From Crenothrix polyspora (GTDB lineage Bacteria > Pseudomonadota > Gammaproteobacteria > Methylococcales > Methylomonadaceae): a stretch of DNA of 64,000 bases. The notes beneath the pieces are model-generated. The model did not search any database. It worked only from the letters and a program-made list of their open reading frames with translations, and was not told where the DNA came from. A program made the translations under genes and the position numbers. Below are positions 21,952 to 29,781 of this stretch, piece after piece; within the stretch, counting starts at the first letter, position 1, and every line of letters begins with the position of its first letter. The DNA is taken from NCBI RefSeq assembly GCF_900163745.1, contig NZ_FUKJ01000301.1:1-64000 (forward strand), read 5' to 3'.

Positions 21952-22036
21952 TTGTCCACGAAAGGCACGAAAATAAAGCAATAACACAATTTTTTAACGT
22001 ATGTTCTTTTGTGTGTTTTGTGCTTTTCGTGGATAA
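21952..22036. repeat. Imperfect inverted repeat, TCCACGAAA family, copy 1
   Basis: The left arm begins TTGTCCACGAAAGGCACG. The right arm ends TGCTTTTCGTGGATAA. They form a long imperfect hairpin about 85 bases overall, between ridA and recG. A second unit of the same type lies at 53416-53523. Confidence 0.7.
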
Positions 22037-22074
22037 ATAAGATTTCATTTGGGGTATTCTTTTGTGGAAATCAC

Positions 22075-22479
22075 CTAAGATGCGGGATATTCCTGTGGCT
22101 TCAGAACCATGATGGCATCCATTTCAACTTGTGCACCTTTTGGTAAAGCCGAAACTCCGACAACAGCACGGGCGGGAAAAGGCGCTTGAAAATAATGATC
22201 CATTACTGCATTAACAATAGGAAAGTGTGACAAATCTGTTAAAAATACATTCAACTTGACCACGTCGGACAAGCTACCACCAGCTGCTTCCGCAACAGCT
22301 TGCAAATTAATAAACACCTGGGTGATTTGCAAAGTAATATCACCCTCGGCCAAAAGCATGGTTTTTGGGACTAGCGGTATCTGCCCCGACAAAAAAACCA
22401 TTTGATTAACTCGCACCGCTTGTGAATAAGTGCCTATCGCCTGTGGAGCGTTAGGTGTTTGTATCACTTGTTTTATCAT
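22075..22479 (-). CDS. ridA: RidA family reactive enamine/imine deaminase
   Basis: 134 residues, normal YjgF/YER057c/UK114 length. RidA hydrolyses reactive 2-aminoacrylate-type enamines made by PLP enzymes. The N-terminal [15 protein letters not shown], the FLSGQIPL strand, and the active-site region [22 protein letters not shown], with its conserved Arg and Glu, are all present. AAGGA sits 6 bases before the ATG. It lies downstream of the mtdB pair (65-base gap) and may share its transcript. Confidence 0.93.
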
Positions 22480-22544: not shown

Positions 22545-23453
22545 TTAAACATCGGCTTCACGCGCTTTATTAAACGCATCTCTAAAATCCAGATACAGCG
22601 GCTGCTCGGTTTCCAACATCAATTTTAGCAATTTATGCTGTAATTGATACTTAACATTACCCACCGCCAAAGCACCTATGCCCACTGCACCTGGTGCATT
22701 GATAGCATGAATCAGAGGCGCACCGATGTCATTGCGTTTTATCCCCTCGATACCCAACGGCGGCACGGCGTTGACATCGCCCGCCACTTTGAGTTGGGTA
22801 GCTTCATCCAGCACACCTGCGCCAATCACTTGAATACCGGCTTTTGCAGTACAAAAAACAATATCGGCTTTAGAAACCAGGCGGGATTTATCGGCTTCAG
22901 AACCTGCAAAAGTGCCTTTAAGATTGCAACCAAAGCGATGATTATATTCCGTCGCTATCGCCAAAGCGGTATCAATGGATAAGTGATCCACCAACCAGAC
23001 TTCGGCACCGGCCAATGAAGCGATAACACCGGTAGCGATACCTACCGAACCTGTACCACCAAAGACAATTGCCTTACAGCCTTTCAGTTCTGTGTTATGT
23101 TTTTGCTGTAATTGCTTTTCTACACAGGACACCAACGCAGCCGCTGTCGTAAATGCACCACTAGGATCAGCAAACACAGATACCTCAAACGGCGGTACCA
23201 TGGCTTTTTTACAAGCCTCCAGCATATCCATAGCCAGACCAAGATTGCGCCCCCCGATAAAAATACCTGTGCGTTTTACACCTGAAGGTCCCCGCGAAAA
23301 AATGGCATCTTGCGTCAATCCAGATACGCTTTCCAATTTAACATTATTGTACGGTACGATGACATCAAAACCTGCATCCACGGCCATGTTCACATCAAAC
23401 GGGCTGTTATGCGGCATCGGGTCAATCATGTGAAGAATACTGCGCTTTTCCAT
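22545..23453 (-). CDS. Methylene-tetrahydromethanopterin dehydrogenase, MtdB family, second paralog
   Basis: 302 residues from the ATG that has AGGAAAA before it; the open frame extends 28 codons further through a repeat and is not used here. MtdB oxidises methylene-H4MPT to methenyl-H4MPT with NAD(P) in C1 oxidation. The N-terminus (RSILHMIDP, SPFDVNMAVDAGFD) and the PPFEVSVFADPSGAFTTAAA and GDVNAVPPLGIEGI blocks are shared with its neighbour. The nucleotide-binding loop is GGTGSVG. It is exactly as long as the upstream copy but clearly diverged, with LYLDFRDAF near the C-terminus as in Methylobacterium MtdB. 86 bases separate the two. Confidence 0.88.
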   Translation of the reverse strand: MEKRSILHMIDPMPHNSPFDVNMAVDAGFDVIVPYNNVKLESVSGLTQDAIFSRGPSGVKRTGIFIGGRNLGLAMDMLEACKKAMVPPFEVSVFADPSGAFTTAAALVSCVEKQLQQKHNTELKGCKAIVFGGTGSVGIATGVIASLAGAEVWLVDHLSIDTALAIATEYNHRFGCNLKGTFAGSEADKSRLVSKADIVFCTAKAGIQVIGAGVLDEATQLKVAGDVNAVPPLGIEGIKRNDIGAPLIHAINAPGAVGIGALAVGNVKYQLQHKLLKLMLETEQPLYLDFRDAFNKAREADV

Positions 23454-23508
23454 TGATTTTTTCCTGTGTTGAAATAAAGACAAGTCGCTAAGCTGTAATC
23501 TTTCAGTT

Positions 23509-23528
23509 CCCCCTTTTTTCAAAGAGGG
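23509..23528. repeat. Degenerate CCCCCTTTTTTCAAAG hairpin repeat
   Basis: CCCCCTTTTTTCAAAGAGGG forms a short hairpin with a bulge, in the gap between the mtdB paralogs. A better-preserved relative lies at 36930-36962. Confidence 0.6.
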
Positions 23529-23539
23529 AGATGACATAC

Positions 23540-24448
23540 TTAACTAGTAGCCTTGATATAATCTCTTGCGACGGCAAAAGCATGTTCAAAATGTAAATAC
23601 ACCGGCTTTTCACTCTCAATCATTTTTTTCAACAAGCGATTTTGTGCCTGGTATTTAACGTTGCCAATAGCTAACGCGCCTATGCCCACTGCACCGCTGC
23701 CAGAACCATCAATAGGCGTACCATTAGCAAAAGCATCCACACCGGCTATACCTGCTGGCGGAACCGCATTCACATCAGCGGCAACTTTTAATTGCGGTGC
23801 TGATGCAATCAATTCTGCGCTTAACAGCCCAATACCCGCAGCTCCCGTTGCAAATACAACATCAGCGGTTTTGATAAATTCCGCTTTGTCTGCATCAGCA
23901 CCCGCTGTCACTACAATAGTGCCGCCACCGAATTCATTGCTGCATAGTTCGGCCACACGCTGTGCTTTGTCCAATTGTCTACCAATAATTCTGACTTGGG
24001 CACCCGCCTGTGCTGCAATCACTGCTGCCGCCTGACCCACAGGGCCTGTGCCGCCCAGCGCCAAAATGACTTTGCCTTCCAGGGTGGTGTTAAATTTTGT
24101 CATTAATTCACGTTCTACCGCTGCAACCATACCCGCAGCGGTGGTAAACGCGCCACTAGGATCAGCAAACACAGACACTTCAAACGGTGGAACCATCGCT
24201 TTTTGTGCCGCTTTTAGCATGTCCATTGCTTCTTTGGTATCACGACCGCCTATAAAAATCCCTGTACGCTTTAGGTTCTTGACACTGCGCGAAAAAATGG
24301 CATCTTGCACTAAGCCTTGCACTTCACTCAGTTCAACATTGATATAAGGTATTGCAGATGTCCATCCTGCATCCAATGCCATGTTGACATCAAAAGGACT
24401 CAGATTTTTAGCCGTGGTCAGCATGTGTAGAATGTATGGTTTTTCCAT
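23540..24448 (-). CDS. mtdB: NAD(P)-dependent methylene-tetrahydromethanopterin dehydrogenase MtdB
   Basis: 302 residues. AAGGAAA precedes the ATG at the expected distance and fixes this start over a longer frame. It oxidises methylene-H4MPT in the cytoplasm, part of the formaldehyde-to-formate route of methylotrophs. Seen: KPYILHMLT, SPFDVNMALDAGW, GIFIGGRDTKEAMDML, FADPSGAFTTAAG, nucleotide loop GGTGPVGQAA, DVNAVPPAGIAGVDA and GIGALAIGNVKYQAQ. The resemblance is to MtdB rather than MtdA. First gene of the mtdB-mtdB-ridA series; a possible attenuator hairpin lies 43 bases upstream. Confidence 0.92.
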   Translation of the reverse strand: MEKPYILHMLTTAKNLSPFDVNMALDAGWTSAIPYINVELSEVQGLVQDAIFSRSVKNLKRTGIFIGGRDTKEAMDMLKAAQKAMVPPFEVSVFADPSGAFTTAAGMVAAVERELMTKFNTTLEGKVILALGGTGPVGQAAAVIAAQAGAQVRIIGRQLDKAQRVAELCSNEFGGGTIVVTAGADADKAEFIKTADVVFATGAAGIGLLSAELIASAPQLKVAADVNAVPPAGIAGVDAFANGTPIDGSGSGAVGIGALAIGNVKYQAQNRLLKKMIESEKPVYLHFEHAFAVARDYIKATS

Positions 24449-24481
24449 GGGGTTTCCTTGATGTAGGTAATCGATCAGTGT

Positions 24482-24506
24482 AAAAGAAAAAGTGCCGAAT
24501 GGCACT
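24482..24506 (-). terminator. Terminator-like hairpin in the mtdB leader (possible attenuator)
   Basis: AGTGCC-ATTC-GGCACT (a 6-bp stem and 4-base loop) is followed by TTTTCTTTT on the minus strand. It ends only about 35 bases before the mtdB start codon, too close for a full promoter plus ribosome site between them. It thus lies in the transcribed leader, unless mtdB transcription starts inside it. Confidence 0.6.
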
Positions 24507-24586
24507 ATCCAGCCTATTCCAACTAACGGCTATTTTTTTAAATGGGTGCTGTGGATTAAGTATCCGGAGCAAAGACTCCAGAAGGT

Positions 24587-24636
24587 AAAAAATGATCAGC
24601 TTTGAACGGATATGTCCCAAAAAAAGCGAAGCTGAT
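24587..24636 (-). terminator. Terminator-like hairpin after the three-gene accessory operon
   Basis: ATCAGCTT pairs with AAGCTGAT across a 26-base loop, then CATTTTTT follows on the minus strand. It lies 37 bases after the stop of the 289-residue gene. The large loop makes it a moderate candidate. Confidence 0.5.
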
Positions 24637-24672
24637 ACTCTTCGTGCATAGCAAATAAACTCTGTTTTTTCT

Positions 24673-25542
24673 TTATTTAAGCAAGTTAGTTAGAGCCGCA
24701 TCGTTCTCCAGTCGTTTACGTAATTTTGCAACTTTATCATTTTCATCTTGCCCCAGTGTATCTCTTATAATTTTCTCAACTTGTTCTAATGCTTGTTTTT
24801 TGCGTGTAGGAACTTTTTTGATGACTTGAGAAACATCTGCTTTCGTCATTTTTTTATCAGGGTTAGAATCACGAAAACTTTTGTATCCAGCCTCCAATGC
24901 TTTAATTTTGTCATCTTCCACCCATATTGCTATATTGTTTAGCAAGCCATCAGTTTTCTTTTTAATTGAAGGCTCCTCCCAGTCAGGAGTGCCCACTCTG
25001 GAATACATCTGACCAACTAACCAGCCAAGTTTTGCTTGGAATGTGTCGTTAAGCTCTAATACCTTGGCAGCAAGGCATTTGTCGTAGTGGATGTCAGCCT
25101 TAATAGCTATAGAAAGATTCAAAAATGCAACACAATCCTCTGATAATGGGGTACTTTCGGATTCAAGGAAGAAGTATCCTGGCTCATTGTTGTTGAATAG
25201 TCGCTGAAGGAACTCGGAAGCCTTACCCTTAGATTTATTAGTCATAACAGGCAGTTCTGCCTCAACGTTAGAACAACCTAACTGCGATAGGTGTTTGCTA
25301 AAAACTAAATCTAAGGAACGAACAGGAACAATAGTAATGTAGGGAGCCTTACACTTTTCGCCTTTACCTCGTTTAACAAGATCACAGCTCTGCGTAAGAA
25401 CCATGAAAAAGAGGTTTTTGGAGTTATCGTAAAAATGTGGATGAATTTTTTGCAAAAGCTTATTTATCTCTTGGGTACGCTCCAAAACGTCCCCTTGCAT
25501 TAAAGACTCTTCAGAAATCTTCGCTTGATATGTAAAGTGCAT
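24673..25542 (-). CDS. Hypothetical protein with TQSCDLV motif, accessory operon gene 3
   Basis: 289 residues, not recognised. No signal peptide or membrane segment, so probably cytoplasmic. The most distinctive part is an N-terminal domain with the hydrophobic strand FFMVLTQSCDLVKRG (about 45-59) followed by YITIVPVRSL. A Cys-Asp pair at a strand end could be catalytic or metal-binding, but that is a guess. The last 90 residues are Lys-rich and helical, including QALEQVEKIIRDTLG. It starts 10 bases after the 90-residue gene, so it is the last member of a three-gene operon. Confidence 0.7.
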   Translation of the reverse strand: MHFTYQAKISEESLMQGDVLERTQEINKLLQKIHPHFYDNSKNLFFMVLTQSCDLVKRGKGEKCKAPYITIVPVRSLDLVFSKHLSQLGCSNVEAELPVMTNKSKGKASEFLQRLFNNNEPGYFFLESESTPLSEDCVAFLNLSIAIKADIHYDKCLAAKVLELNDTFQAKLGWLVGQMYSRVGTPDWEEPSIKKKTDGLLNNIAIWVEDDKIKALEAGYKSFRDSNPDKKMTKADVSQVIKKVPTRKKQALEQVEKIIRDTLGQDENDKVAKLRKRLENDAALTNLLK

Positions 25543-25551
25543 CCGCTAAAA

Positions 25552-25824
25552 TCACAAAATATTACAGAATGTTTGGCTCTTTATCGTCCTGCCTTCTAAT
25601 TGGGCATTTAATTCGCGAATAGCCAACTTCTTTTCAATGGACGCTGGAGATATGGCTACCATTAAATGACTCCCATCATTTACATACTTCCCTTGTATAA
25701 GTAATACCTGATTAGACTGTTCATAGCTAGTACTTGATTTAATCATTACAGGATGTGAATTTTTTATTTCTACCCATTCTTTATAAGGTATAGATGCTGT
25801 GGGTTGGGTGGATAAATTAATCAT
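25552..25824 (-). CDS. Hypothetical protein, accessory operon gene 2
   Basis: 90 residues from the second ATG, chosen because GGAG lies 9 bases before it; an ATG 5 codons upstream has no ribosome site. Not recognised. It looks mostly beta, ending in a short helix (EKKLAIRELNAQLEG). There is no motif, cysteine pair or membrane segment. Its start overlaps the 3' end of gene 1 by 8 bases, and gene 3 follows after 9 bases, so translation is probably coupled. Its small size and central place suggest an adaptor or antitoxin-like partner (inference). Confidence 0.6.
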   Translation of the reverse strand: MINLSTQPTASIPYKEWVEIKNSHPVMIKSSTSYEQSNQVLLIQGKYVNDGSHLMVAISPASIEKKLAIRELNAQLEGRTIKSQTFCNIL

Positions 25825-26491
25825 TTTTGCATTCTCCATAAAGGCTATTCATAAGTTTCTTAGCTAACTCTATATTTCCTGACATCCGATTATAATCACC
25901 ATTTCCACGCAGAACAGCCAACGCAGATTCTATTGAGCTTACAGGGTGATGAAAGTTAAATCTCACTACAATCTCATTAGCCTCAAATTGCCGCTGTACA
26001 TTGATAATAACGGTTTCATCTGCATTTTTGAAATTTGCAGCAATATTGCGAGAGGCAAGTAACCAGTCAGATGGCATTTCATCGGACAAATCTTGCGTCG
26101 AAGCCGTAAAAACATCTAATTCATTTGATTTAGGGTCTGAGTGTTTGAACGTAAGGTTATGTCCAACGCCTGTAATTGGGGTATGTTTCAACTCCTGTAA
26201 TATCTTTGCAGCCACGTCTTCCAAGCCTTCCAGATCATCCTCACCATCAGTTATTGAGCCAATGGGGAACAAGATAAATGTGTTTGGGAGAACCACAAAA
26301 GATAGCTTTTCAAGCTCATAACGCGGAGGCTCAAATATAACACCTAGTGTAGCGGGAAAATATGTCTTAACTACATTATCCCCATTCAAAGATTTATCTA
26401 AACCGTGTTGGAGCACCCACGCAGGTGTTAGAATTGCAGGATTCCAAGCGCCAGCAATTACTAAAGATGTTTCACTGGAGATTAGATTCAT
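25817..26491 (-). CDS. Hypothetical protein, accessory operon gene 1
   Basis: 224 residues, not firmly recognised. There is no signal or membrane segment. The sequence alternates strands and helices, with YFPATLGVIFEPPRYELEK, then FVVLPNTFILFP, then PITGVGHNLTFK and IVVRFNFHHPV. This layout loosely recalls the TIGR04255 family, but I cannot confirm it. It is the first gene of a three-gene operon that overlaps the next gene. AT-rich codon use resembles its operon mates rather than the housekeeping genes. Confidence 0.65.
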   Translation of the reverse strand: MNLISSETSLVIAGAWNPAILTPAWVLQHGLDKSLNGDNVVKTYFPATLGVIFEPPRYELEKLSFVVLPNTFILFPIGSITDGEDDLEGLEDVAAKILQELKHTPITGVGHNLTFKHSDPKSNELDVFTASTQDLSDEMPSDWLLASRNIAANFKNADETVIINVQRQFEANEIVVRFNFHHPVSSIESALAVLRGNGDYNRMSGNIELAKKLMNSLYGECKND

Positions 26492-26652
26492 AGACTAAAT
26501 TACCGTTAAATTTGTTACATATAAACGTATAGTTTAGCATTACTAGAAGTAAAGAAACTATATTTTGAGAGAAGCATTCTGAGGTCTATTAGCTGGCTAA
26601 TGCTGGATTGATTTAGAGCTTTGTACATAATAATTTCCCCCAGTATGGGTTA

Positions 26653-26997
26653 TTATATTTTTCTATCATTTTCAGATACTAATTCACAAGACCCGCCACC
26701 GACACAATCAATGATACGGTCATAATGTGTAATAAGTATTAAAACCGCATGGTCTCTTACATCTTGTGGTTCTTTTTCGTCCATTGACAGCGCCATGTTT
26801 TCTGATAAAACTTCATAATTCATGGCGCGTGATTTTGATAGCTGCTTGTCTTTTGCCACAATCTGCGCCTTAAGGCTTTCGACTTCTGTGGATGAGTCAT
26901 CGCTTATACCGAAATAAACGGCAATGGATATGCCAATAATGGCCATCATAATTAGCCCTTGAATCGATTCAGATAGGGTTGGTTGTAAGTTGCTCAT
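26653..26997 (-). CDS. Small membrane-anchored protein with coiled coil
   Basis: 114 residues with one transmembrane helix near 13-31 (GLIMMAIIGISIAVYFGI). A short heptad-like stretch rich in Lys and Glu follows (VESLKAQIVAKDKQLSKS). The C-terminal part includes a CVGGGSCELV cysteine pair that may form a disulfide if exported. GTGAGAAA precedes the ATG. Function unknown. It lies 41 bases after the Excalibur-domain gene on the same strand. Confidence 0.6.
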   Translation of the reverse strand: MSNLQPTLSESIQGLIMMAIIGISIAVYFGISDDSSTEVESLKAQIVAKDKQLSKSRAMNYEVLSENMALSMDEKEPQDVRDHAVLILITHYDRIIDCVGGGSCELVSENDRKI

Positions 26998-27038
26998 ATT
27001 TTTCTCACTTTTTTGATTAGTTGACAGTTATTTGAAAA

Positions 27039-27308
27039 TTACCCGTGGTGTCTACGGTGGTGCACATGGTATCTGCGGTGTCTATGATGACCACGGCGAT
27101 TATGTCCTTTTTTTTCGCACATCCGCGAACCTTCTACAAGGCAGTCGCAGGCACTTCCATCACGGTCGCGGTCTAAATTTCCTGCGTTACTATGGGTATT
27201 AAAATAATGTTGCGCTTGTGCATGTGAGCCGAAAGAAGAACAGCTTCTGGCATGGGCGTCAACGCAGAAAGCCATTATTCCAATGAAGATGGTGAGCGTC
27301 TTTGTCAT
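27039..27308 (-). CDS. Secreted Excalibur calcium-binding domain protein
   Basis: 89 residues with a signal peptide (about 1-20, ending DAHA). The mature protein has the Excalibur signature: an aromatic/cysteine lead-in (CSSFGSHAQAQHYFN) and the Ca-binding loop DRDRDGSACDCL, close to the DxDxDGxxCE consensus. The C-terminal tail is extremely rich in His and Arg (RRGHHRHRRYHVHHRRHHG) and may bind metals. It would act in the periplasm or outside. It sits between two other export/membrane genes of unknown role. Confidence 0.8.
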   Translation of the reverse strand: MTKTLTIFIGIMAFCVDAHARSCSSFGSHAQAQHYFNTHSNAGNLDRDRDGSACDCLVEGSRMCEKKGHNRRGHHRHRRYHVHHRRHHG

Positions 27309-27340
27309 GCGATCATATCCGTAGTGAAGCGTTTGGGTTA

Positions 27341-28132
27341 TTACTTTAAATTGAGTGAGGATTTAGGCATCCAGAAGTTTGATTGATTTTTCATGTCAGC
27401 GACCCATATCATGCTTTCATTTTCTCGGTTATTCATAACGACAAGGTGTCGTCCGTTTTTTCCATATCGGCAAACGGCCATTGCTTGATCAAATGTTTTT
27501 ACCCCAGCAGAATCGCGTAAATTATCCATCATTATTTTTGTGCTTCCCTCATATTCAGGATCCCCAGTGATAGGTGAAATATTTGGCATCCTATAGCCGC
27601 CTGAGACATTAAGTGTCATAACCATAAGACCAAGAGCAAAATTAGTATATTCAGCAAGTTCCTTTGTTGGACAAGCGACGTAAGGATCATTTTTTTTGAA
27701 ATATGAAACAACATGAGTTCCTGCTGGACATGGGGCAAGGTCACATCTGCTTGCCTCTTCTTTCGTTAACTTGGGTAACATATATTTTTCTGTCTGTTGT
27801 ATTTCTGCCTGGCTGGATGTTTGTGGGGGGAGATTAGCTTGAGTGACTTCTATTTTTTTAGGTTCTGGTTGTTTTGTTTCAGTCGCTACTGGTTGTTGAA
27901 CACTCGCTTTTGTTTCATCTATTTTGTCTGGTTGAGGGAGAATCGATCCAGCGACCGCAAAAAATACAACAGATAGAAAAATATAGGTTACAAATATTTT
28001 AAATCTTGATGGTGGGTTCTCGGTCTTTGATACAAAAAATGTAAGTTTTCGAGGCACGAATATTCCAATAATACTCAAGGCAAAAAACAACAGCGCTATA
28101 ACGATAATGGTTCCACCGATAAATTCTTTCAT
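27341..28132 (-). CDS. Membrane protein with two N-terminal helices and a periplasmic cysteine-containing domain
   Basis: 263 residues, unrecognised. Two N-terminal transmembrane helices (about 5-26 and 44-64) are followed by a Pro/Gln/Thr-rich linker (about 75-115) and a C-terminal domain with CDLAPCPAGTHVV and further cysteines near 153 and 203. The last 50 residues contain HLVVMNNRENESMIWVADMK. No known family could be named. It is transcribed in the same direction as the Excalibur gene 32 bases downstream. Confidence 0.6.
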   Translation of the reverse strand: MKEFIGGTIIVIALLFFALSIIGIFVPRKLTFFVSKTENPPSRFKIFVTYIFLSVVFFAVAGSILPQPDKIDETKASVQQPVATETKQPEPKKIEVTQANLPPQTSSQAEIQQTEKYMLPKLTKEEASRCDLAPCPAGTHVVSYFKKNDPYVACPTKELAEYTNFALGLMVMTLNVSGGYRMPNISPITGDPEYEGSTKIMMDNLRDSAGVKTFDQAMAVCRYGKNGRHLVVMNNRENESMIWVADMKNQSNFWMPKSSLNLK

Positions 28133-28218
28133 TGTGTGCCTGTACCTAATATGAACTTAAAGCCTATGAGATGGCGCTTATCTACAACGTAGACTTGCGC
28201 TATTTATTGCCTTATTAA

Positions 28219-28443
28219 AGGCATAAATTCATTAAAGCAAAAGCCACGCCAAATATAATAAATAAATTAAATCAATATGTTATTCTCTCTCTACAACCCA
28301 TTGCAATAAAAATAATTTACGATAGCGTAAAAAATTATGACGAACGACTAAGTTCAGGCCATTTTTATTGGAAAGACAAATCGATAAAACAACCCGACGG
28401 AAAAAGCTATCCTGCGTTATGCCGTGCCTGTACTGAATATTAA
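28219..28443 (+). pseudogene. Possible C-terminal remnant of a gene
   Basis: A 74-codon open frame with no ATG start and a natural stop. Its last half has protein-like composition, for example YDSVKNYDERLSSGHFYWK and GKSYPALCRACTEY. It looks like the tail of a protein whose 5' part was lost. No family recognised. It may be a chance frame in AT-rich DNA. Confidence 0.3.
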
Positions 28444-28596
28444 GGGAAGTTTAGCGGGGGATAGTGAGCTGGTTTCTGTAAAATAATTCGACAATGCAAA
28501 CCAAAAGAAATGGATAGTCTACTTTATAGCTTTATTCTGGTTCGGGACTGATGGAATCAAAATAAAGCATTTTTGGCAGGACAGAGGGCAACAAGG

Positions 28597-28618
28597 CCGG
28601 TTAAATACCGGTTTTTTT
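28597..28618 (+). terminator. Intrinsic terminator
   Basis: CCGGT and ACCGG form a 5-bp stem around TAAAT, followed by seven T residues. It is plus-strand oriented and has no intact plus-strand gene upstream, only the remnant at 28219-28443. Confidence 0.65.
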
Positions 28619-28750
28619 GTGAGACACCGGCGGAACAGTTACGAATAAAAAATAGAGGTGGTTTTTAGCGTTATGGAACGTCAAGCATGTAAATAATGAT
28701 TGATTGTTTCTGTAAGCTACAATTAGTTGTGTTTATTTGCTATCATTTGT

Positions 28751-28766
28751 CTTATATATTTATAAG
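28751..28766. promoter_or_regulatory. Candidate operator dyad of the GNAT toxin-antitoxin operon
   Basis: CTTATA-TATT-TATAAG is a perfect 6-base inverted repeat 27 bases before the antitoxin ATG and overlaps the probable -10 region. Autoregulated toxin-antitoxin operons commonly have such dyads. Inference only. Confidence 0.4.
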
Positions 28767-28793
28767 TACAGCATAGCTTTAAAGGCGGTAGTT

Positions 28794-28976
28794 ATGGCAA
28801 TTAAAAGTAGCACATTTGGCCGTGTTGAATTAAGCGGGGCGGATGCTGTTCGTTTTGTCCAACACATGAATGAAGACAAACCAAACCCATTGGCATTGGC
28901 AACCCTTGCGCGTGGTCGTGAAATTATCGAAAAAACCAACAAAGGTGAAGCGTTCAAATTAAAACGCAATGCCTGA
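28794..28976 (+). CDS. Probable antitoxin partner of a GNAT toxin
   Basis: 60 residues starting at the ATG with AAAGGCGG upstream (an open extension of 19 codons lies over the promoter). The start MAIKSSTFGRVELSG leads into one or two helices and a basic tail (FKLKRNA). Its size, its position directly before a GNAT gene and an 8-base overlap are typical of type II toxin-antitoxin operons. I cannot assign it firmly to the ribbon-helix-helix (DUF1778/TacA) group. Confidence 0.65.
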   Translation: MAIKSSTFGRVELSGADAVRFVQHMNEDKPNPLALATLARGREIIEKTNKGEAFKLKRNA

Positions 28977-29496
28977 TTCAGATTATTACATCCGAAAACT
29001 TGAAGCCACCGATAGCGTCCAAAATTTTAAGACTGGCAACCCGTCATTCTTACCGCTAAAAACCTTCTTGCAAAAACAAGCCAAACAATTTCAACAATCC
29101 AGTATTGCACAAACCTACGTAGCCGTGATGAACGATAAAACCATCATTGGTTTTGTGGCCTTGACCTGTAGCGAGATTGACTTGCAAAACGGTTATGAAC
29201 TAACCGATTGTAGCCATGCCAACCATTACGAATTTTTACCCGCTGTTAAAATTGCAAGATTAGCAGTCGATAGCCGCTACCGAAATTTCAGCGTTGGCTC
29301 GACTCTTGTTGGTTATGCGATTGCATTGATACGGGACAAAATAGCCGAGAATGTCGGTTGCCGTTTCGTTGTGACTGATGCTAAAACAGAGGAGGTGGAT
29401 TTTTACCTAAAGCAAGGTTTTATTGTTCTGGATTCAGAAGGCAATCAATCAACCGAACACACGCTGATGTTTTTGGATTTGGCTCATTTGAAATAA
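28969..29496 (+). CDS. GNAT-family acetyltransferase, probable TacT-like toxin
   Basis: 175 residues, the usual size of GNAT toxins that acetylate the amino acid on aminoacyl-tRNA. The GNAT core is visible: TYVAVMNDKTIIGFVALT, then VKIARLAVDSRYRNFSVGSTLV, then FYLKQGFIVL near the C-terminus. The acetyl-CoA loop, normally R/QGxGxG/A, reads RNFSVGS here, so it is divergent. The N-terminal region (FKTGNPSFLPLKTFL) takes the place of the FDCGxxxLDxWL motif of TacT. It overlaps the antitoxin by 8 bases. A plain acetyltransferase is the alternative. Confidence 0.75.
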   Translation: MPDSDYYIRKLEATDSVQNFKTGNPSFLPLKTFLQKQAKQFQQSSIAQTYVAVMNDKTIIGFVALTCSEIDLQNGYELTDCSHANHYEFLPAVKIARLAVDSRYRNFSVGSTLVGYAIALIRDKIAENVGCRFVVTDAKTEEVDFYLKQGFIVLDSEGNQSTEHTLMFLDLAHLK

Positions 29497-29629
29497 TGGG
29501 CTTAAGTGACTACCCATTTTAGTTGTCTTAAAACTGAATTAATCATAACTAATCAGGCTAAAACTTAAAGATTGGGGCGGCAATCAGTGCGGCAAATATT
29601 GCCGTTAGTTATGGGTATTTTTTAGCAAC

Positions 29630-29647
29630 TGGGACAAAATTGGGACA
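29630..29647. repeat. Paired TGGGACA direct repeats near tRNA-Lys
   Basis: Two TGGGACA heptamers lie 11 bases apart (29630 and 29641), one helical turn, 60 bases from the tRNA 3' end. Paired sites of this kind occur beside integrase attachment sites, from memory. No integrase gene is present. Confidence 0.35.
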
Positions 29648-29663
29648 CGGGGAATTTCAGGCA

Positions 29664-29697
29664 TAAAAAAAGCCCTTCGACTAAACGTAAGGGCTTG
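29664..29697 (-). terminator. Intrinsic terminator of tRNA-Lys
   Basis: On the minus strand AAGCCCTT pairs with AAGGGCTT across an 11-base loop, followed by seven T residues. It starts 8 bases after the tRNA CCA end. Confidence 0.85.
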
Positions 29698-29705
29698 ATT
29701 CTTAA

Positions 29706-29781
29706 TGGTGGGGTGTGAGAGGCTCGAACTCTCGACCTATGGATTAAGAGTCCACTGCTCTACCAACTGAGCTAACACCCC
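29706..29781 (-). tRNA. tRNA-Lys (anticodon CTT)
   Basis: 76 nucleotides with CCA encoded. The acceptor starts GGGGTGT, the D-loop has AGCTCAGTTGGTAGAGC, the anticodon loop is CTCTTAA (anticodon CTT, reading AAG), and the T-arm is GAGAGTTCGAGCCTCTC. All four stems pair, with a G-U at the top of the anticodon stem. It has its own promoter and terminator and stands alone. The 3' end faces the accessory region. Confidence 0.97.

Follow-up and report, generated by a model that had tools for sequence, protein, structure and literature searches.

A conserved, mobile three-gene unit beside a tRNA-Lys gene of Crenothrix polyspora is a candidate for an undescribed defence or toxin-antitoxin system

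We analysed a window of 64,000 nucleotides from Crenothrix polyspora and found that three adjacent genes, which we call A, B, and C, form a real, conserved, and undescribed mobile module. The contextual evidence for defence that is given below makes the trio a good candidate for a hitherto undescribed defence or toxin-antitoxin system. Our tentative proposal, to which we give somewhat less than an even chance, is a toxin-antitoxin-like role: the trio would be a small mobile module with C as its effector and would probably protect its carrier (a cell or a prophage) from other phages. The trio is conserved between alpha- and gammaproteobacteria although none of its proteins belongs to a family in Pfam, NCBIfam, or PADLOC. 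A sequence-only reading had picked out these genes as an unrecognised three-part accessory operon, and this was upheld: homologues of the three genes co-occur, their order is A-B-C wherever the DNA allows a check, and no housekeeping family was found for them.

Three linked genes without a recognised family

The genes follow one another head to tail, all on the minus strand, and together span 24673-26491 (Table 1). The sequence-only reading gave their lengths as 224, 90, and 289 residues, with overlaps or gaps of under 10 bases. The lengths of A and C stand, and B has 95 or 90 amino acids depending on which ATG is used. With the shorter form of B, A and B overlap by 8 bases and the linkage is as tight as claimed; with the longer form, the overlap is 23 bases. 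The gap between B and C is 9 bases in either case. A hairpin with a T run, which resembles a terminator by consensus match only, lies about 30 bases past the stop codon of C. Promoter-like matches near the trio were no more frequent than by chance. The trio was also said to be AT-rich, which is true to a mild degree: its GC content is 38.6%, as compared to 43.9% for the window, and this is around the 6th percentile among stretches of that size.

Table 1. Positions of the trio and associated features in the window.
Feature	Position	Strand	Remarks
Gene A	26491-25817	-	224 aa; first in the operon
Gene B	25839-25552	-	95 aa, or 90 aa from a second ATG at 25824; middle gene
Gene C	25542-24673	-	289 aa; third gene, proposed effector
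TQSCDLV motif of C (residues 50-56)	25375-25395	-	alignment of six homologues
N-terminal region of C (residues ~12-185)	24988-25509	-	weak but repeated structural matches to MazF, CcdB, and CptN toxins
Terminator-like hairpin and T run	24644-24627	-	consensus match
Accessory stretch that holds the trio, between tandem mtd-like genes and tRNA-Lys	24508-29701		comparison with a same-genus genome (G667)
tRNA-Lys	29706-29781		

For comparison we used a trio from Bradyrhizobium, whose proteins are 48% (A), 31% (B), and 56% (C) identical to those of the window. Between the two trios, the differences at the third codon position are 0.64 for A, 0.76 for B, and 0.69 for C, versus 0.29, 0.43, and 0.23 at the second position. 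Because the differences concentrate at the third position, A, B, and C are genes rather than chance open reading frames, and by this codon-level evidence all three are under purifying selection.

As the sequence-only reading had it, none of the three can be assigned: A, B, and C have no significant match in Pfam, NCBIfam, PADLOC, or PHROGs. No component of PADLOC 2.0 matched them up to an E value of 1, their homologues have no significant match in Pfam or NCBIfam either, and neither of these two libraries indicates a SecB-like chaperone among the three. Searches by sequence against solved structures gave nothing meaningful. Matches to SpoIVA, histidine-kinase, AnkH, and pAdhesive entries of Pfam and NCBIfam were all under the family cut-offs, and we judged them to be due to chance.

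The trio occupies a variable cargo site

In another genome of the same genus (G667), the flanking mtd genes and the tRNA-Lys are 80-83% identical to those of the window, and in place of the 5.2 kb that separates them in the window there is about 1.1 kb with two ORFs. By eye, we read one of these as a YefM-like antitoxin and the other as a RelE/ParE-like toxin (L059, 2760-3403, minus strand). In a third genome of this genus (G640), an ORF that comes after the tRNA-Lys looks like a tyrosine integrase gene (L061, 8534-9716), which suggests that the tRNA-Lys is an integration site in the genus. Within the window's own accessory stretch, a 79-amino-acid gene overlaps and lies upstream of a gene for a GNAT acetyltransferase (28737-29496, plus strand; GNAT by Pfam and acetyltransferase by PHROG). 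These two look like a TacAT-type toxin-antitoxin pair, with the antitoxin called by eye. The replacement in G667, the integrase-like ORF in G640, and the GNAT pair together identify this as a variable cargo site. The trio is accessory, and the comparison within the genus bears out the earlier description of an island-like stretch by a tRNA. The Bradyrhizobium trio (L002) also lies within 1.5 kb of a tRNA, in that case tRNA-Asn.

We also note three features of the surrounding DNA. The flanking mtd-like genes (22545-24505, minus strand) are tandem paralogs that we read by eye as methylene-tetrahydromethanopterin dehydrogenases, and on these genes alone the host appears methanotroph-like. An 89-amino-acid protein (27039-27308, minus strand) has an Excalibur-like calcium-binding domain that scores slightly under the cut-off. 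Copies of an intergenic stretch at about 21957-22080 are found on many G667 contigs (75-84% identity), and it is probably a dispersed repeat.

Relatives are rare but keep the order A-B-C

A single-sequence query of a public genome collection, which finds close relatives only, gave one match: a metagenome-assembled genome of Bradyrhizobium with all three genes in the same order. A distant trio, of 228, 80, and 353 amino acids and again in the order A-B-C, is present in G680, a genome from the family of the window. Two more such trios are on uncultured viral or mobile contigs (L029/L033 and L032), another of these contigs has A, B, and the start of a broken C (L031), and L034 holds most of C at the end of the contig, so its upstream genes are not visible. 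L002, L026, L029, L031, and L032 each have a homologue of A ahead of B and C. Overall, A and B lie upstream of every intact C whose upstream DNA was readable, and the tight spacing is kept across the intact trios. These observations show that A-B-C is a conserved three-gene unit.

Other copies are decayed. In five Bradyrhizobium genomes (G035, G402, G455, G516, and G579), C is broken by stops or frameshifts, or is split. Three of these (G035, G516, and G579) were read in detail, and all three retain the end of A and part of B ahead of C. In G035 and G516, for which we examined the ORFs, A is interrupted by an insertion sequence. This is as expected of a dispensable accessory set. One genome of the window's family (G723) has only a fragment of C. 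Such copies are what one would see if the trio were decaying genomic debris with no present function, but the window's copy is intact, its spacing is conserved, and the purifying selection on all three genes already speaks against decay, so we consider this explanation very improbable.

Relatives are at most 3% of any set of genomes that we sampled. They were found in 2 of 398 genomes of a sample from the phylum, 1 of 229 from the class, 3 of 151 from the window's family, and 7 of 243 from Bradyrhizobium. Collections of plasmids and isolated phages had no relatives of C or A; two matches from Listeria phages were insignificant (29% coverage, E = 0.6). The trio is thus mobile and sporadically distributed: it is present here and there, at a variable site, and is carried by phages and islands, as mobile accessory sets are.

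Neighbouring genes point to defence

The sequence-only reading had suggested a check of the neighbourhood for known defence genes, and we found them at two of the loci. The first (L032) is a P2-like prophage, with a gpP terminase and a gpO scaffold protein (both by Pfam), a major head protein (by PHROGs), and a gpQ portal that is 84-89% identical to those of P2-like phages of Burkholderia. Directly next to gpQ are the trio, a gene for an OLD-like ATPase-TOPRIM protein, and one unknown gene. The OLD-like gene matches the Old model of PADLOC (E = 6e-22) and is just under the cut-off for OLD-like_TOPRIM in Pfam. In P2-like phages, the cos-proximal stretch between gpA and gpQ is a hotspot for anti-phage systems, and P2 itself carries old and tin there (Rousset and colleagues, PMC9122126). 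The trio of L032 lies in this hotspot. At the second locus (L033), hsdM-hsdS-hsdR precede the trio on the same strand, and no phage genes are visible.

Two other relatives (L031 and L034) adjoin phage structural or head genes. The collection that we searched was viral, so the mobile and viral contexts are partly built in, and the hotspot and restriction contexts outweigh the mere presence of phage genes. Because the relatives in L031, L034, and the P2-like prophage adjoin head genes, the trio could be a phage-borne cassette for superinfection exclusion or counter-defence, whose proteins would serve the prophage by altering the host or disabling its defences, without a toxin. We consider this quite unlikely, as the trio is also found at apparently chromosomal loci by tRNAs (in the window and in L002) and behind the restriction-modification operon.

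Defence, toxin-antitoxin-like, and stress functions had all been proposed for the trio. The positions of the trio in the prophage hotspot and after type I restriction-modification genes speak for the first two rather than for stress.

The first and second genes

Structure prediction had been proposed as a check, and we modelled A and C. The AlphaFold2 model of A, from five sequences, is a two-part protein of beta-sheet and helix (pLDDT 72, pTM 0.73). Its conserved motifs are an N-terminal GAWN..AI..P, a TP....G.N, and a C-terminal N.H. The best match of the model in BFVD is A0A515MGR4 (E = 4e-7, TM 0.5). We rejected relationships to guanidino kinases, AdoMetDC, and TBP: the Z scores were under 7, or the TM score was about 0.3 with an rmsd of 9, which reflects a common arrangement.

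Small size and poor conservation, as seen in B, are common among antitoxins and adaptors. The three closest members of the family share a C-terminal segment of the form K-L-x-I-R-x-L-N.

The third gene as a candidate effector

Conservation is highest in C, which has a beta-rich N-terminal region and a helical C-terminal part. The TQSCDLV motif noted in the sequence-only reading is real, and its Cys-Asp pair is invariant: among six aligned homologues, T50, Q51, C53, D54, L55, and V56 do not vary. The other invariant polar residues are K65, R75, N117, N119, K171, R182, T185, and D187. High conservation with invariant polar residues is as it should be for an effector. Such residues would equally suit an enzyme of any kind, so an accessory metabolic, regulatory, or stress function on islands, unrelated to phages, also has to be considered. 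The four libraries gave no housekeeping or metabolic family, and the distribution and neighbours of the trio are those of mobile defence and toxin genes; of the functional alternatives to our proposal, we consider this the least likely.

The structure model of C is weaker than that of A (pLDDT 67, pTM 0.58). Its best match has a Z score of only 4.4, and the weak matches that cover residues ~12-185 are dominated by the MazF, CcdB, and CptN toxins (Z of 2.5-3.7 over 90-127 residues). By eye, the order of elements fits the toxin fold, with a QGDV strand, a VLTQSCDL strand, and a PYITIVPV strand. We take a MazF/CcdB-like fold for this region as a weak lead from modelling and not as a result. C is not a PemK/MazF protein by sequence, as it does not match the Pfam family (PF02452) and hhalign comparisons to PemK/MazF members found nothing. 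A search of BFVD with C also found nothing.

The trio might instead be a plain addiction module, of a three-part type II-like kind, that stabilises prophages and islands: C would be the toxin, A and/or B the antitoxin, and there would be no sensing of phages. An addiction module would have the same anatomy and mobility, the MazF/CcdB-like hint for C would suit it, it could decay by frameshifts and insertion sequences as seen in Bradyrhizobium, and the site of the trio holds a YefM/RelE-like pair in a same-genus genome. But three conserved genes, with a large conserved one at the front, are more than simple addiction needs, and the OLD-like nuclease and type I restriction neighbours indicate defence. 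We consider addiction unlikely, although it is the alternative that we take most seriously.

C resembles the exchangeable third genes of some TIGR04255 loci

Proteins of the TIGR04255 family are sporadic (18 of 200 genomes in a sample of the phylum), and the window's genome has no match to it. We compared 23 loci that encode them (L105-L127). Many of these have a TIGR04255 gene (often of about 250 amino acids), then a small or HTH-bearing middle gene, and then a variable third gene. The third genes include TQSCD-like genes, PemK, a family of 131-166 amino acids, and others, so the arrangement appears to be modular. In the literature that we searched, we found no description of this arrangement or of the function of TIGR04255.

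In 7 of the 23 loci, the third gene is TQSCD-like (LSNTCD in four; SQTCD, TQPCN, and THACT in one each), and the motif cysteine of C recurs in these third genes. A profile of the N-terminal region of C matches them with an hhalign probability of 86% (E = 4.8e-6), as compared to E = 0.085 for the best of 100 column shuffles and 0.39 for the reversed profile. In a blind hmmsearch of 211 ORFs from the neighbourhoods, five of the seven TQSCD-like third genes were within the top six, with low individual scores. The similarity lies around the QGD..(T/S)QxCD region. These profile comparisons show a remote homology between the N-terminal region of C and the exchangeable third gene of seven of the 23 TIGR04255 loci.

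The first genes are a different matter. A and its homologues do not reach the 30-bit cut-off of the NCBIfam profile for TIGR04255, and we rejected membership of A in that family (hhalign probability of 0.2%) despite a similar position and a similar-looking strand motif. As A has no match to TIGR04255 by any sequence method that we tried, the first genes are at best positional analogues. One TIGR04255 locus (L108) has a genuine PemK/MazF gene after the small gene (E = 1e-18), which may be a coincidental neighbour.

These loci could mean that the trio belongs, as one branch, to a large and hitherto undescribed class of immune modules with three genes. In such modules, the first protein (TIGR04255, or A as its analogue) and a small connector would keep their roles, and the effector in third place would be swapped among unrelated toxins (TQSCD/MazF-like, PemK, and others). 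We consider this broad reading to be rather doubtful. That the third gene is exchanged between loci suggests a modular design for immunity.

Proposed function

We propose that the trio works as a toxin-antitoxin-like defence module, as follows. C would be the effector, and its N-terminal region, with the invariant TQSCD motif, is probably a beta-barrel-type domain like that of MazF or CcdB, as the model hints. When free, C would block growth. The small and fast-evolving B most likely binds C and keeps it inactive, and neutralisation might be by B, by A, or by both. The role of A, the large and constant component at the front, is most likely to keep the complex together or stable and to detect infection. 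Upon infection, A would release C, growth would stop, and the phage would be held off.

Comparison with known systems

The defence cassettes of P2-like phages, of the old and tin type (PMC9122126), are the nearest in position: a relative of the trio adjoins gpQ beside an OLD-like gene. The proteins differ, in that A, B, and C are unlike any system modelled in PADLOC.

In its proposed working, the trio would be analogous to CmdTAC, a toxin-antitoxin-chaperone system of three genes. In CmdTAC, the third protein stabilises the antitoxin, senses a phage capsid protein, and releases the toxin; CmdC is SecB-like and CmdT is an ADP-ribosyltransferase (PMC11618068). Neither of these protein types was detected among A, B, and C, so the likeness is in the proposed working only.

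Type II toxins of the PemK/MazF and CcdB folds share with the trio the layout of a small gene and then a toxin-like gene, and the modelled N-terminal region of C may resemble them in fold. C differs from them in sequence and profile, in its extra helical C-terminal half, and in its TQSCD motif, and the trio has an added third gene.

PDC-M32, a pair of genes listed by PADLOC as a candidate defence system, is connected to the TIGR04255 loci, as the middle gene of one of them (L123, 5272-5781, plus strand) matches the C-terminal part of PDC-M32A (E = 1e-8). By profile comparison, PDC-M32A does not resemble TIGR04255 in its N-terminal part, and A, B, and C do not match either member of the pair. 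In one genome of the window's family (L128, 1501-3008, plus strand), a match to PDC-M32A and then a 125-amino-acid ORF like PDC-M32B directly follow an hsdM-like ORF.

The TIGR04255 loci differ from the trio in their middle genes and in a first gene that has no detectable sequence relation to A. Many of them have the same layout of a first gene, a small gene, and a third gene, and the trio is linked to a sporadic family for which we found no function in the literature searched. If C is a toxin that is restrained by A and B, then one cloning experiment would open both families.
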